Below, one piece after another: positions 4,489 to 44,218 of a stretch of 63,192 nt of DNA (its first letter is position 1; each line of letters begins with the position of its first letter). The stretch covers positions 1 to 63,192 of the forward strand of contig JAUNJY010000021.1 of assembly GCA_030535455.1 (NCBI GenBank), read 5' to 3'. Made by a program: the position numbers and the translations under genes. Under the pieces are notes generated by a model, which saw only the letters and a program-made list of their open reading frames with translations, was not told where the DNA came from and did no database searches. The DNA is from a bacterium. GTDB lineage: Bacteria > Bacillota > Clostridia > Lachnospirales > Lachnospiraceae.

Positions 4489-5265
4489 TTACTCTCCTTT
4501 CTGTCTCATCCATGGTGTTGCTATTTTTTCTATTAAATGAATTGCGCCAAATACAATCATGCTTATTGCTACAATAAGTACGATTGCGGCAAACATCTTA
4601 TCAATGGCATAAACGCTTTTTGCTCTTGTCATATAGACACCAAGCCCTTTATTTCCGCCAAGCCACTCTCCAATAATAGCCCCCATAATGCTATAGGTTG
4701 CTGCTATTCTCATACCAGAGAAAAAGTTAATCAGCCCAAATGGCAGCTTTAAATGGATAAATCTTTGTATCTTGTTTGCCCCCATTAATCGAAAATGATT
4801 GATTAGTTCTTGGTCCACGGCTTCCATGCCATCCACCAGACTGATTACCATTGGAAAGAAGCATACAAGTACTACTACAACTACCTTAGGTAATATTCCA
4901 AAACCGAACCAGATTAAAAACAAAGGTGCAATTGCTATGGTTGGTATGGTCTGGGAAATTACTAAGACCGGATAGATTGCCTGTTTTAATAACGGTATCA
5001 GGTCAATCATCACAGCCAGTACCAGGGATAAGGCAATGGCAATTACAAATCCTAGCATCCCTTCATATAGGGTTACCAACATATTCTCCCAAAGTACTGA
5101 AAAGTCAGTACATAATGCCTCTGCCACCTTGCTTGGTGCCGGCATAATATATGGTTCAATCTTATTGATCCTTACAACTGCCTCCCAAATTCCCAACAGG
5201 CTTATTATAAATAGGACCGGTATTATCTTTTTTATTATCTTTTCTACTATCGATTGACTCTTCAT
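4489..5265 (-). CDS. thiX: ABC transporter permease, thiamine-precursor uptake (ThiX-like)
   Basis: 258 residues with about six membrane helices and the EAA-loop region typical of binding-protein-dependent permeases (around residues 165-185, HFRLMGANKIQRFIHLKLP). It is the first gene of the operon thiX-thiY-thiZ and is preceded by ATAGGAGA. The family includes nitrate, taurine and formylaminopyrimidine permeases; the TPP riboswitch and neighbouring NMT1 protein favour thiamine pyrimidine. The leader between riboswitch and this gene is about 720 bases and holds three tandem structured repeats, unusually long for such an operon. Confidence 0.88.
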   Translation of the reverse strand: MKSQSIVEKIIKKIIPVLFIISLLGIWEAVVRINKIEPYIMPAPSKVAEALCTDFSVLWENMLVTLYEGMLGFVIAIALSLVLAVMIDLIPLLKQAIYPVLVISQTIPTIAIAPLFLIWFGFGILPKVVVVVLVCFFPMVISLVDGMEAVDQELINHFRLMGANKIQRFIHLKLPFGLINFFSGMRIAATYSIMGAIIGEWLGGNKGLGVYMTRAKSVYAIDKMFAAIVLIVAISMIVFGAIHLIEKIATPWMRQKGE

Positions 5266-5289
5266 CTAGTTTCTCCTATCAATAACAAA

Positions 5290-5850
5290 GTGTATGTTCC
5301 ACACACTCTCGCGCTTAAACTCCCTGCAAGGAACACACACTTTGCCGCGCCGAACTCGGTCGCGACAGCGACATTCTCCTTTCGAGTGAGTGCGCATCTT
5401 GGCTTTCTGTTTTTTTGAAAGCCTTTTTTACTCTATAGGGAAGGGCTCGGAGAGAACTTTCCTATAGAGTAAAAAAGTGTGTGTTCCACACACTCTCGCG
5501 CTTAAACTCCCTGCAAGGAACACACACTTTGCCGCGCCGAACTCGGTCGCGACAGCGACATTCTCCTTTCGAGTGAGTGCGCATCTTGGCTTTCTGTTTT
5601 TTTGAAAGCCTTTTTTACTCTATAGGGAAGGGCTCGGAGAGAACTTTCCTATAGAGTAAAAAAGTGTGTGTTCCACACACTCTCGCGCTTAAAATTGCTG
5701 CAAGGAACACACACTTTGCCCGCGCCAAAATCGATCACGAAGTGATAAACTCCTTCCGCGTAAGTGCGCATCTTGGCTTTCTGCTTTTTTGAAAGCCTTT
5801 TTTAATTGATAGGAGGCTTCTCCAAGAGAAGTTTCCTATCAATTAAAAAA
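5290..5850. repeat. three tandem copies of a 187-bp structured intergenic repeat
   Basis: Unit boundaries are about 5290, 5477 and 5664. Copies 1 and 2 are almost identical; copy 3 differs in its middle and outer arms. Each unit has, on the plus strand: hairpin I (GTGTGTGTTCC with GGAACACACAC); a nested helix ACTCG/CGAGT plus GTCGC/GCGAC around a conserved CTCCTT; the invariant block GCGCATCTTGGCTTTCTG; a terminator hairpin GGCTTTC/GAAAGCC followed by T6; and hairpin III (ACTCTATAGG with CCTATAGAGT) followed by A6. On the minus strand hairpin I is followed by T6. No open reading frame of note is present. Further copies lie at 8084 and 34500. Confidence 0.92.
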
Positions 5851-5886
5851 AGCATAGCATTTTCCAATATCAGAAAAATACTATGC
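5845..5886 (-). terminator. intrinsic terminator, probable TPP riboswitch expression platform
   Basis: On the minus strand GCATAGTATTTT pairs with AAAATGCTATGC and is followed by seven T residues. It begins about 15 bases after the end of the TPP aptamer, the usual place for a terminator controlled by the switch. Confidence 0.85.
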
Positions 5887-5899
5887 CTATTAATTAACA

Positions 5900-5992
5900 T
5901 AATTATCTCCCTACGTTGGCATGATCCAAATCAGGTATATGGGTCGAAACACGGTTTCCTCTCAGGTAATACTCTACCTCCCCAGATATAAC
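5900..5992 (-). promoter_or_regulatory. TPP riboswitch (THI element)
   Basis: The minus strand carries the conserved TPP aptamer blocks: CTGAGAGG, then ACCTGATTTGGATCATGCC, then the ending ACGTAGGGAGA. It lies immediately downstream of a -35/-10 promoter and upstream of a terminator hairpin. With TPP bound, the terminator should form and reduce transcription of thiXYZ. This fits precursor uptake being needed only when thiamine is short. Confidence 0.95.
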
Positions 5993-5995
5993 TGT

Positions 5996-6024
5996 ATGTT
6001 AACTACTATTTATTTAATTGTCAA
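5996..6024 (-). promoter_or_regulatory. promoter of the TPP riboswitch-thiXYZ unit
   Basis: Minus-strand TTGACA (6024-6019), a 17-base spacer, and TAACAT (6001-5996). The -35 box begins just after the tatD stop codon. Transcription would begin at about 5989, at the foot of the aptamer. Confidence 0.7.
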
Positions 6025-6771
6025 TCAAATACCAGTCTCTTCCATCAATTGGCAGAAATTACTCCAAATGATATCTTCTATTTTCGCTGGCTCTAACTGT
6101 TTACACTCCGCTAAGCGTTCTACAATCCTAAGAATTTCAGAAGGGTATCCATACTCTCCAGTCACCCATTCTAGCGCCGTTGGTCCATCGGTCTCAACAA
6201 GAAGCCGATCCATGGGGATTTTAGATACCAGTTGCTGTGTAAGCAATGATATTCCATAATCCACACTGACTGTAAAGTAGCATCCTAAGGATACCAGCTT
6301 TTCAAAGATCTTAATATCACCACTATACCAATGGATTATTACCTTACTACAATCATAGCCCTTCAGGCTTTCATAGATTTCTTCCTCGGCTCCTTTGGTA
6401 TGGATGGTTATGACCTTATTTCGTTTCATACTTTCTTTTAATAAGAAATGATATACTTCCTGCTGTCTTTCATAATTTTCAGGATCCTCTGCCCACACTG
6501 TATCCAGCCCGATTTCTCCAATCAGTCTGCTTTCCTCAATCCAAGGAATTAATTTTGTCAGACTATCCCTAAAAGATCCAGCCTTCCAAGGATGTATGCC
6601 AAATGCGGGAATAACATAAGAACACCTTTCGCCATACGATTTATTTTGCATATAGCTTTCAAGGTCCATACTATTGGCTATTGTAAGGATCTTATAGTCT
6701 TCAATCTCTCTTAATGCTTTTTCTATCTGTTCCCCATAAAAGTCTAAATGGGTATGTGCATCTACATACAT
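6025..6771 (-). CDS. TatD-family metal-dependent hydrolase
   Basis: 248 residues of the amidohydrolase TIM-barrel family. Metal ligands are visible as DAHTHLD near the start, GEIGLD near residue 90, TIHTKG, the HWYSG histidine, and the terminal ETDGP. TatD proteins are 3'-5' DNA exonucleases or related phosphoesterases; the family also contains many uncharacterised hydrolases, so the substrate is uncertain. The gene begins one base after the stop codon of the metallo-beta-lactamase gene, so the two are probably co-transcribed. Its stop codon lies at the promoter of the thi operon. Confidence 0.85.
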   Translation of the reverse strand: MYVDAHTHLDFYGEQIEKALREIEDYKILTIANSMDLESYMQNKSYGERCSYVIPAFGIHPWKAGSFRDSLTKLIPWIEESRLIGEIGLDTVWAEDPENYERQQEVYHFLLKESMKRNKVITIHTKGAEEEIYESLKGYDCSKVIIHWYSGDIKIFEKLVSLGCYFTVSVDYGISLLTQQLVSKIPMDRLLVETDGPTALEWVTGEYGYPSEILRIVERLAECKQLEPAKIEDIIWSNFCQLMEETGI

Positions 6772-8006: not shown

Positions 8007-8080
8007 GGAGTCATAGCTCAGCTGGGATGAGCGTTCGCCTCACACGCGAGAGGTCATGGGTTCGAGCCCCATTGGCTCCA
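8007..8080 (+). tRNA. tRNA-Val(CAC)
   Basis: Complete cloverleaf. The acceptor GGAGTCA pairs with TGGCTCC, the D-arm is AGCTCAGCTGGGATGAGC, the anticodon stem TTCGC/GCGAG encloses loop CTCACAC (anticodon CAC, valine GTG codons), and the T-arm holds GGGTTCGAGCCCC. The discriminator is A and no CCA is encoded. A dispersed repeat copy with a terminator follows within four bases. Confidence 0.96.
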
Positions 8081-8083
8081 TTA

Positions 8084-8243
8084 TAACAAAGTGTTTTGCT
8101 TGCAAAACACGACCCACCGAACGCGATCACGAAGTGATAAACTCCTTCCGCGTAAGTGCGCATCTTGGCTTTCTGATTTTTAGAAAGCCTTTTTTAATAC
8201 ATAGGAGGCTCTTCGAAGAGAAATTTCCTATCAATTAAAAAAA
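8084..8243. repeat. dispersed structured repeat, tRNA-Val copy
   Basis: Same module order as the tandem copies at 5290, but with different paired sequences: hairpin I GTGTTTTGC/GCAAAACAC (8091-8110), nested helix ACGCG/CGCGT (8121-8125 with 8149-8153) and ATCAC/GTGAT (8126-8130 with 8134-8138), then GCGCATCTTGGCTTTCTG, terminator GGCTTTC/GAAAGCC-T6, and hairpin III (loop CTCTTCGAAGAGAA) with A7. The terminator hairpin, about 8167-8196, probably ends the tRNA-Val transcript. Confidence 0.9.
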
Positions 8244-8281
8244 GTCTTCTCACTCAAGAATGAATGGGAAGACTTTTTTTA
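8237..8281. terminator. bidirectional terminator
   Basis: AAAAAAAGTCTTC pairs with GAAGACTTTTTTT around a short loop. It serves the superoxide reductase gene on the minus strand and backs up termination of the tRNA-Val transcript on the plus strand. Confidence 0.88.
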
Positions 8282-8314
8282 TGCCCTGTTCTTTAGGGTG
8301 TTTTCTATAACAAT

Positions 8315-8689
8315 TTAATCAATATCTGCCTTCCATAGTCCATGCAAGTTACAATATGCATAGGCTGCCAAAGGCTTGTCTCCATCGGAAATTTTAAAAT
8401 GGACTACTGGATCACTATCATGAGGCAAGAACTTATACTGTCCGCCATTTTGTGTCTCTAAAACTACTGTAGTAATAGAATGCTCCTCTGACATAGGGTG
8501 TGATACACTTCCTACATTTACAGTTACTGTATCACCGCTTAACGTAACTACCGGCATATGTTTTTCTTTTGCCGCATCCACGCTGTTCGGTGTAATCTCT
8601 TGTGCCTCTGCAAAAGACGCCTCCGAAGTAAAACATTTTGTAATTGGGATTACCAGGCCATCGTTATTGCATTTAAAAAATTTCATCAT
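8315..8689 (-). CDS. superoxide reductase (desulfoferrodoxin family, one-iron type)
   Basis: 124 residues from the ATG at 8689, chosen because AAGGTGG lies nine bases upstream; the frame opens two codons earlier at a TTG. The C-terminal domain has the iron ligands of centre II: EKHMP, the SHPMSEEHS histidines and CNLHGLW (Cys and His). These reduce superoxide to peroxide without making oxygen, typical of anaerobes. The N-terminal desulforedoxin-like region (FFKCNNDG) keeps only one cysteine, so the rubredoxin-like centre I cannot form. It neighbours a flavodoxin gene that could donate electrons. The enzyme is cytoplasmic. Confidence 0.88.
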   Translation of the reverse strand: MMKFFKCNNDGLVIPITKCFTSEASFAEAQEITPNSVDAAKEKHMPVVTLSGDTVTVNVGSVSHPMSEEHSITTVVLETQNGGQYKFLPHDSDPVVHFKISDGDKPLAAYAYCNLHGLWKADID

Positions 8690-8758
8690 ATTCAAAAGCC
8701 ACCTTTCTAAACCTCTTAGTTAGTTTTCCTTCTAAGGTGGATTCTATGTATTTAATTC

Positions 8759-34398: not shown

Positions 34399-34499
34399 TT
34401 CTACTACCTCCTAAGTAATATGTTATAAGATATAATATACTATATTTCCTATTATATATCATTATGTTTTACAATTAAACTATATTTTTGTAAAAAACA

Positions 34500-34818
34500 A
34501 GAAATTTGCATCTGCAAATTTCTTAGCGCTGAACGTGATTACATCGTAATATACTCCTTTCACGTGAATGCGCATCTTGGCTTTCTGTTCTTAGAAAGCC
34601 TTTTTTATTTAGAAGGCTGCTCGAAGAGAAGTCTCCTAAATAAAAAAATTAAATTTGCATCTGCAAATTTCTTAGCGCTGAACGTGATTACAAAGTAATA
34701 TACTCCCTTCACGTGAATGCGCATCTCGGCTTTCTGTTCTTGGAAAGCCTTTTTTTATTTTAGGAAAGTTAAAAACTTTCCTAAAATAAAAAAAGAAACT
34801 TGCATCTGCAAATTTCTT
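34500..34818. repeat. two tandem structured repeats plus extra hairpin I, beside tRNA-Asn
   Basis: Copies at about 34500-34648 and 34649-34794, period 149, then a third hairpin I alone (34795-34818). Paired sequences differ from other loci: hairpin I AGAAATTTGCA/TGCAAATTTCT; nested helix ACGTG/CACGT with ATTAC/GTAAT; the core GCGCATCT(T/C)GGCTTTCTG is kept; hairpin III is ATTTAG/CTAAAT in copy 1 and ATTTTAGGAAAGTT/AACTTTCCTAAAAT in copy 2. On the minus strand the last hairpin I (GAAATTTGCA with TGCAAGTTTC, then T7) is a good terminator for tRNA-Asn. Confidence 0.9.
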
Positions 34819-34835
34819 TTTGGGCAAAAAAATAA

Positions 34836-34908
34836 CTCCCCAAGTTGGACTCGAACCAACGACAACACGGTTAACAGCCGTGTGCTCTACCAACTGAGCT
34901 ATTGAGGA
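34836..34908 (-). tRNA. tRNA-Asn(GTT)
   Basis: Complete cloverleaf on the minus strand: acceptor TCCTCAA/TTGGGGA, D-arm AGCTCAGTTGGTAGAGC, anticodon loop CTGTTAA (GTT, asparagine), T-arm TTGGTTCGAGTCCAA, discriminator G, no encoded CCA. Confidence 0.96.
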
Positions 34909-34918
34909 ATATGCTTAT

Positions 34919-43835: not shown

Positions 43836-44218
43836 TTTATTCGAACTCCTATCCCACAGATAATTCGTTCCACACTAAGTGCTTCCTTTGCCAATCTACA
43901 GCTGACACGCCCTACTAATTCACGATACTCTCGTTCTTCTCTCTTCATTGGTACAATTCCAGCTCCGACTTCATCACATATAATATCTACTTTGGGGTTG
44001 TCCGTAAGGAGCTGTTCTATTAATACATAGACATCCTGTTCCTTCTCCCACTCGCGTTTGATCCACAAATGAAAGTGATTAATGACGTTCGCATTCTTTA
44101 ATTCCTCATAGATGCAGTCTGCACCATCTGCAACTTTCACCTCTGTAAATGACAGGCTTTGTTTCTCTAATACATAGTCTAATTTTCCTTGAGCTGTTCC
44201 TCCAACATATAATCTCAT
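43832..44218 (-). CDS. CobU-like protein with altered P-loop
   Basis: 128 residues, a shortened relative of adenosylcobinamide kinase. The P-loop reads GGTAQGKL, lacking the Ser/Thr after Lys that CobU needs; the middle has IICDEVGAGIVP and the C-terminus RVSCRLAKEA...IICGIG mirrors the end of the CobU family (SRLAKKAD...VVCGIP). The true CobU lies two genes away, so this is a paralogue. Role unknown: perhaps a regulatory partner or an enzyme for another substrate. It is coupled to cobC by a four-base overlap. Confidence 0.8.
   Translation of the reverse strand: MRLYVGGTAQGKLDYVLEKQSLSFTEVKVADGADCIYEELKNANVINHFHLWIKREWEKEQDVYVLIEQLLTDNPKVDIICDEVGAGIVPMKREEREYRELVGRVSCRLAKEALSVERIICGIGVRIK

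Follow-up and report, generated by a model that had tools for sequence, protein, structure and literature searches.

What is the non-coding repeat that stands in three tandem copies between a TPP riboswitch and a transporter gene in the 63,192-nt stretch of DNA analysed here (the window), and again at two further loci? A first-pass annotation had described a dispersed family with covarying helices, either a structured RNA or a mobile element. All six copies were found at the three loci where it had placed them, and the helix arms that it quoted are present in the sequence at those places and are complementary (Table 1). The 18-base block GCGCATCTTGGCTTTCTG occurs in the window five times exactly and once with one mismatch, against a mean of 0.02 matches at up to 3 mismatches in 100 shuffles. 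The tandem array (approximately 5283-5852) has a unit of 187 nt. Its third copy, which joins a hairpin I of type b to a core and hairpin IV of type a, looks by its sequence like a recombinant of these two subtypes, and its inner helix is partly broken, as the annotation had said.

Table 1. Features at and around the three element loci, in window positions.
Feature	Position	Strand	Remarks
ABC transporter permease gene (BPD_transp_1)	4489..5265	-	
Stretch like the outer part of hairpin IV (ATTGATAGGAG)	5266..5289	-	Repeat family D4; probably holds the RBS-like AGGAG of the permease gene
Element copy 1, first of tandem array of three	5283..5469	+	Type b core at 5345-5435, 102.6 bits; hairpins I-IV read on +, gene-sense is -
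Element copy 2	5470..5656	+	99% identical to copy 1
Element copy 3	5657..5852	+	Hairpin I type b; core and hairpin IV type a
Host terminator behind TPP riboswitch	5850..5888	-	Hairpin then T-tract, abuts copy 3; -13 kcal/mol, z -4.3
TPP riboswitch	5891..5994	-	RF00059, 72 bits; upstream of the array in gene-sense
tRNA-Val	8007-8080	+	
Single element copy	8085..8243	+	Type a; between tRNA-Val and the desulfoferrodoxin-gene terminator
Host terminator hairpin abutting single copy	8244..8277	-	Fold of 8246-8282: -9.4 kcal/mol, z -3.8
Desulfoferrodoxin gene	8315-8695	-	
Element copy, first of tandem pair	34499..34648	+	Type d core (ACGTG/CACGT)
Element copy, second of tandem pair	34649..34794	+	Type d; abuts tRNA-Asn terminator
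Terminator-like hairpin behind tRNA-Asn	34795..34818	-	Fold of 34786-34835: -14.3 kcal/mol, z -4.8
tRNA-Asn	34835-34909	-	

The element is approximately 150-190 nt long, dispersed and non-coding, and is too short for an ordinary gene. It consists of four hairpins. On the + strand these are a variable stem at the 5' end (hairpin I); the core, made of an outer GCGC/GCGC helix, an inner helix and a next helix (hairpin II); GGCTTTC...GAAAGCC followed by T's (hairpin III); and a long hairpin, with an A-tract behind it, whose loop is AGGAG..CTC..GAGAA-like (hairpin IV). The first-pass annotation used the name hairpin III for what is hairpin IV here, and counted the present hairpin III in its conserved block. 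In gene-sense the host terminator hairpin and its T-tract are followed by hairpins IV, III, II and I and lastly by the element's own T-tract (TTTTTTA or TTTGTTC). A tetranucleotide guide 5' of a hairpin foot, which pairs with the cleavage site in REP/RAYT and IS200/IS605 systems, was looked for by eye: in a few copies the T-tract and the A-tract on either side of hairpin IV pair and change together, but both could be element-coded. Departures from this plan were also seen. Two copies of G273 (L290, match at 44093, and L313, match at 2281948) carry an extra hairpin-forming insertion of approximately 50 nt inside the core helix of an otherwise intact element, and some copies in this genome (C113:71231, C40:3884 and C86:15481) break off within hairpin III or IV, with the host terminator following at once.

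Of the six copies in the window, minimum-energy folds of single sequences give the full core helices in copies 1 and 2 alone, with other structures in copies 3 and 4 and partial core helices in copies 5 and 6, so the case for structure rests on covariation and not on single folds. In this genome (140 matches, 136 of them distinct), changes on both sides of a pair are found in 384 cells of the alignment, where shuffles average 122, and they extend to 19 of 22 pairs; in a multi-genus alignment of 108 matches (103 distinct) there are 338 such cells versus 87 in shuffles, and all 22 pairs have them. Paired cells make up 92.3% and 96.1% of the two alignments, respectively, both of which were fitted to the model and thus favour structure. 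When the pairing partner is slid by 1-3 columns as a control, paired cells fall from 92-96% to 27-56%. At hairpin I a perfect stem of 8 bp or more was found in 112 of 202 rows, in 44 versions, some of which are longer or shorter forms of one stem, and 32 different six-base outer arms are present among the copies of hairpin IV that were counted. The family with covarying helices that the first-pass annotation proposed is therefore borne out, and pairing is kept in the further genomic copies as well.

Covarying core helices and a terminator-like hairpin III could point to a trans- or cis-acting RNA made from the + strand, with hairpins I and II as its functional parts and III as its terminator. 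This reading also draws on an excess of G-U over A-C pairs on the + strand (141 to 94 in the strand-polarity test and 88 to 37 in a second count), a weak and partly circular signal given that the models were built, searched and fitted on the + strand. Against it, the element has no evident promoter: a scan of 5200-6050 gave a single promoter-like match, which lies outside the array and compares with 1.3 in shuffles. More than 100 copies is also unusual for an RNA gene. The unpaired CTCCTT stretch, which in this genome resembles an anti-Shine-Dalgarno loop, is not kept in the G095 copies, which have AAATACAATA-like letters there, and an anti-Shine-Dalgarno role was dropped. The hairpins would fit folded single-stranded DNA equally well, and the structured-RNA half of the earlier alternative is not borne out. 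We consider an RNA gene very unlikely.

The element is abundant in this genome (G000) and patchily spread over the family. The conserved block occurs 104 times in this genome with up to 3 mismatches, compared to none for the reversed control. A covariance model built from 24 copies (R1) gave 148 matches in this genome (E up to 0.1; 150 candidates scored), some of them partial, and 54 in the complete, single-contig genome of the congener G003. Across 98 relatives R1 matched 15 genomes; among them are the genus mates G001 and G003 as well as G095, the only one matched of 38 genomes that are outside the family but within the order. A second model (R2), for which 108 multi-genus matches were used, scored 11 candidates in each genome and matched 126 of 397 family genomes, in 112 of 334 genera, leaving 271 family genomes without a match at the cut-off; of 391 genomes drawn from the class, the six that R2 matched all belong to the same family and include this genome. 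The first-pass annotation had recognised no named family, and no Rfam family reached its gathering cut-off at the element in the window or at 20 loci of this genus and others, the best match below threshold at an element being mir-4679 at 37.7 bits versus a cut-off of 88. No description of the element was noticed in searches of open-licence papers. The element could be among the 3161 numbered candidate structured RNAs from human microbiomes of which PMC8040213 gives an account in its available text.

Outside bacterial genomes, 22 unannotated 'Bacteriophage sp.' records match an element of G263, and the 15 of these that were listed come from human faecal samples. R2 confirmed the element in all four records that were checked (MT835536, MT835487, MT835472 and MT837532; L337-L340), and in three of these four scaffolds a hairpin is seen by eye behind hairpin IV. 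These scaffolds show that the element occurs in faeces and not that phages carry it, as they may be bacterial DNA in virus preparations. No plasmid matched either of two query elements. Exact-pattern scans gave 12 stretches of genome contigs from varied organisms with one match each, in a scan that may leave out this genome and very near ones, and 10 stretches of viral contigs, in which R2 finds no element better than E 0.009; both sets were taken as chance.

The copies have dispersed recently. In G003, three copies that are 100% identical over at least 140 nt lie at unlinked loci with no flank homology, and pairs with at least 97% identity and, again, no homology in the flanks number 28 among ten copies. 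In this genome there are ten pairs of this kind among eight copies, lying on different contigs. Junctions are sharp: in gene-sense, eight G003 copies are each preceded on the left by a different host hairpin and six or more T's, and on the right each has hairpin I, TTTTTTA and then unique flank (right-end sequence CTCTTTTTTA). Because identical copies lie at unlinked loci between unrelated flanks and end in sharp junctions, we conclude that the element moves. The feature is a mobile element rather than a proven RNA, and it is this half of the earlier alternative that stands.

The ends of the element are not inverted repeats. In the eight G003 copies each end carries a T-tract. In type-a copies of G000 one end is AAAAAA and the other is often GAACAAAG; as these ends differ, direct repeats were rejected as a target-site duplication for type-a copies. 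A MITE of a DDE transposon was likewise rejected, there being no terminal inverted repeats and no general target-site duplication. Comparison of G000 with G003 and of G433 with G137 gave no base-exact empty site; these relatives are approximately 75% identical and their intergenic DNA does not align, which also holds for a gene end of G137 that is without the element when compared with G433. The spacing between tandem neighbours is 113-189 nt, except for one pair at 79 and another at 279. A second repeat, GTCTACAGTCTGA, stands directly before a hairpin at L087, L088, L091 and L094 of G003 and at 13 places in the G000 stretches; three of its four G003 occurrences come after a conserved TGGAGAACGAAGTTCTCCAAACCTCTCC block, and it is not present in the window.

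Most copies lie directly behind an intrinsic terminator of the host. On the + strand the host hairpin follows immediately on the A-tract behind hairpin IV, and a strong hairpin starts exactly at this junction in 68 of 110 testable copies, compared to 10 of 108 at 250 nt downstream, 3 of 109 at 250 nt upstream and 2 of 110 in shuffled sequence; in the other 42 of the 110 the junction hairpin scored below 8. The testable copies are the 118 rows, of 202, with a hairpin IV score of at least 15, minus eight that are followed by another copy. The neighbouring gene points its 3' end at the element in 181 of the 194 rows, among the 202, that have a called gene there, where genes are plain ORFs of at least 90 codons; by this crude calling 13 rows lie inside an ORF. 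In other genera most loci viewed show the same layout, terminator included, with a few copies truncated or lacking a clear hairpin. The hosts in the window are the terminator of the TPP riboswitch, that of the desulfoferrodoxin gene and the terminator-like hairpin behind tRNA-Asn. At the last of these (34499-34818), the stem of the hairpin on the tRNA-Asn side is nearly the same as hairpin I of both adjoining copies, as if the element had taken up a terminator hairpin or left one behind.

Such a position raises the question of whether the copies are two-way terminators or insulators kept by selection for the host and spread by recombination instead of transposition. The element does carry terminator-like signals in both directions: at most loci viewed by eye a T-tract follows hairpin III on the + strand and hairpin I on the other, and a terminator scan of the array found 8 sites versus 0.4 in shuffles, including hairpin I on the - strand, with hairpin III exceeding the loop limit of the scan. 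Some copies are also old, since the tRNA-Asn locus has the same subtype in G000 and G001, where changed arms of hairpin IV still pair by eye. Elements stand in both G000 and G003 at approximately five gene ends with matching flanks (on both sides at only one), which could reflect conserved function; the subtypes at these shared ends differ, however, which suits independent insertion at the same terminator. The identical copies between unrelated flanks and the 271 unmatched family genomes also speak against a function for the host, and an array inside a thiamine-transport leader is hard to see as useful insulation. We regard selection for the host as an unlikely explanation.

Orientation follows the direction of replication. 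It agrees with local GC skew for 53 of 54 matches in G003 and for 145 of 148 in this genome. Along the G003 contig all matches but one, of 48 nt, fall into three blocks: - strand as far as 1.105 Mb, + strand between 1.159 and 3.403 Mb, and - strand again from 3.664 Mb onwards. GC skew, which partly reflects gene orientation, switches sign between the same neighbouring matches. In five further complete genomes, 39 of the 43 matches (of 53) that lie in the stretches examined agree with skew. On the terminator side all four copies that disagree have a + strand gene, which is also the case for 7 of the 39 agreeing ones. In G003, 68 of 453 gene 3' ends (15%) belong to lagging-strand genes, in an ORF sample taken mostly around elements with some overlap between stretches, so approximately 8 of the 54 elements would be expected to be flipped if terminators alone decided. 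One was observed (P about 0.002, calculated by hand), and the element thus seems to need both a terminator and the correct replication strand. Position behind terminators and the tie to replication direction are the two strongest features of the element, and neither is in the first-pass annotation.

For a gene on the leading strand, the gene-sense strand serves as lagging-strand template. The reading we favour, and hold to be probable, is that the element is non-autonomous and enters the lagging-strand template at terminator hairpins, itself in the form of folded single-stranded DNA. At a replication fork this template would be exposed as single-stranded DNA, in which the hairpin and T-tract of a terminator could fold. 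A putative enzyme that reads 'hairpin then T-tract' would join the element 3' of that tract. As the last hairpin of the element (I) and its T-tract repeat the same signal, excision could occur at two matching sites, and the repeated signal would also allow insertion next to an existing copy and so give tandem arrays. The host gene and its terminator would be left intact and the element would add terminator-like hairpins in both directions, making it nearly harmless. The family, its covariation, its place behind terminators, its strand bias, its recent dispersal and its sharp junctions are observed; the single-stranded intermediate, the joining site and the role of the hairpins as recognition sites we infer, and the mechanism as a whole is plausible. 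The G-U excess on the + strand would favour folding of that strand, the opposite of the one predicted; it speaks against insertion on the lagging-strand template, though we give it little weight.

Insertion of single-stranded DNA with this strand logic has parallels. REP/BIME sequences with RAYT (TnpA-REP) and the IS200/IS605 family follow a lagging-strand logic in the available text of PMC6006769 and PMC3733652, and resemble the element as small intergenic hairpin repeats of high copy number with hairpins near both ends. Like them, the element has hairpins near both ends, no terminal inverted repeat and strand-biased insertion. Unlike REP/BIME it is longer (approximately 150-190 nt, four hairpins) and targets a terminator, and a casual look noticed no GTAG tag of the REP kind in it. 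Their enzyme is also wanting: Y1_Tnp (PF01797) has no match in 10 of 21 carriers, including the complete G003 with its 54 element matches, and a Y1 transposase was rejected as the general mobiliser. This genome has three Y1_Tnp matches, each several kb from the nearest element, and Y1 is present in 11 of 15 genomes matched by R1 versus 49 of 83 others.

Group IIC introns share the target, as they use DNA hairpins such as terminators (PMC3898094, available text) and exploit lagging strands (PMC10190682, available text), and the 68 of 110 junctions described above likewise place the element 3' of an intrinsic terminator hairpin. The element could accordingly be imagined as a small RNA retrotransposed in trans by a group IIC-intron-like reverse transcriptase, the more so as it ends in gene-sense with a hairpin and T-tract like a terminated RNA. 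Yet it is shorter than 200 nt, the copies tested have no Rfam group II intron match, and RVT_1 has no match in 10 of 21 carriers, including this genome (93.6% complete). We hold copying through RNA to be improbable, and reverse transcriptase was rejected as the general mobiliser. Of 20 genomes in both enzyme surveys, five (G253, G128, G398, G207 and G278; completeness 91-99%) have neither Y1 nor RVT_1 and still carry 8-11 element matches each, in a survey that scored 11 candidates in every genome. Genes can be missing from a draft assembly, however, and loss of an enzyme after use is also possible. An autonomous partner was sought by clustering 587 ORFs from 108 G000 stretches, and no transposase-like multi-copy family was present among the groups shown; multi-copy groups beside the copies look by eye like ABC-transporter ATPases, response regulators and other host genes. 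By analogy, the element would combine IS200/IS605 logic with a group IIC target and yet be filed under neither. As a tentative and broader version of insertion as single-stranded DNA, elements across the family may recognise terminators by shape, insert on the lagging-strand template and be moved by neither Y1 nor reverse transcriptase, possibly by a host replication or recombination factor.

Other short repeats were compared as well. BOX, RUP and SPRITE of Streptococcus are also dispersed and strongly folded, BOX being modular and SPRITE terminator-like and enriched at gene 3' ends (PMC3049150, available text). BOX and RUP differ in having terminal inverted repeats (same source), which the ends of the element lack, and neither insertion directly behind an existing terminator nor strand bias is among the features given for the three in the available text of PMC3049150. 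Compared by description and not by sequence, bcr1 of the Bacillus cereus group and EFAR of Enterococcus faecalis are similar short structured repeats. EFAR repeats are two-way terminators. Mobile features of bcr1 are named in a title cited in PMC2267715. No GTTRRRY-like core, the motif of integron attC sites, was noticed in the element by eye.

The array in the window places the element in an operon leader. Read in gene-sense, the TPP riboswitch and its terminator come first, then the three copies of the element, then the permease gene of an NMT1/THI5-type transporter and, behind it, the gene for the NMT1/THI5-like binding protein. A promoter-like match lies upstream of the riboswitch (6024-5996), which is not evidence by itself as shuffles give 1.3. 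The riboswitch should control the transporter operon. With hairpin I of copy 1 at -26.8 kcal/mol in gene-sense and TTTGTT or TTTTTT following the copies of the array, the array may uncouple the transporter genes from the riboswitch.

Approximately a third of the sampled genomes of the family carry the element, and it is absent from the RNA families searched. It matters for annotation and for transcription, as the array between a TPP riboswitch and transporter genes illustrates. Choosing a target behind terminators by the shape of the DNA is a safe-harbour strategy, one known mainly from group IIC introns, and finding the enzyme responsible could reveal a new way of moving single-stranded DNA.
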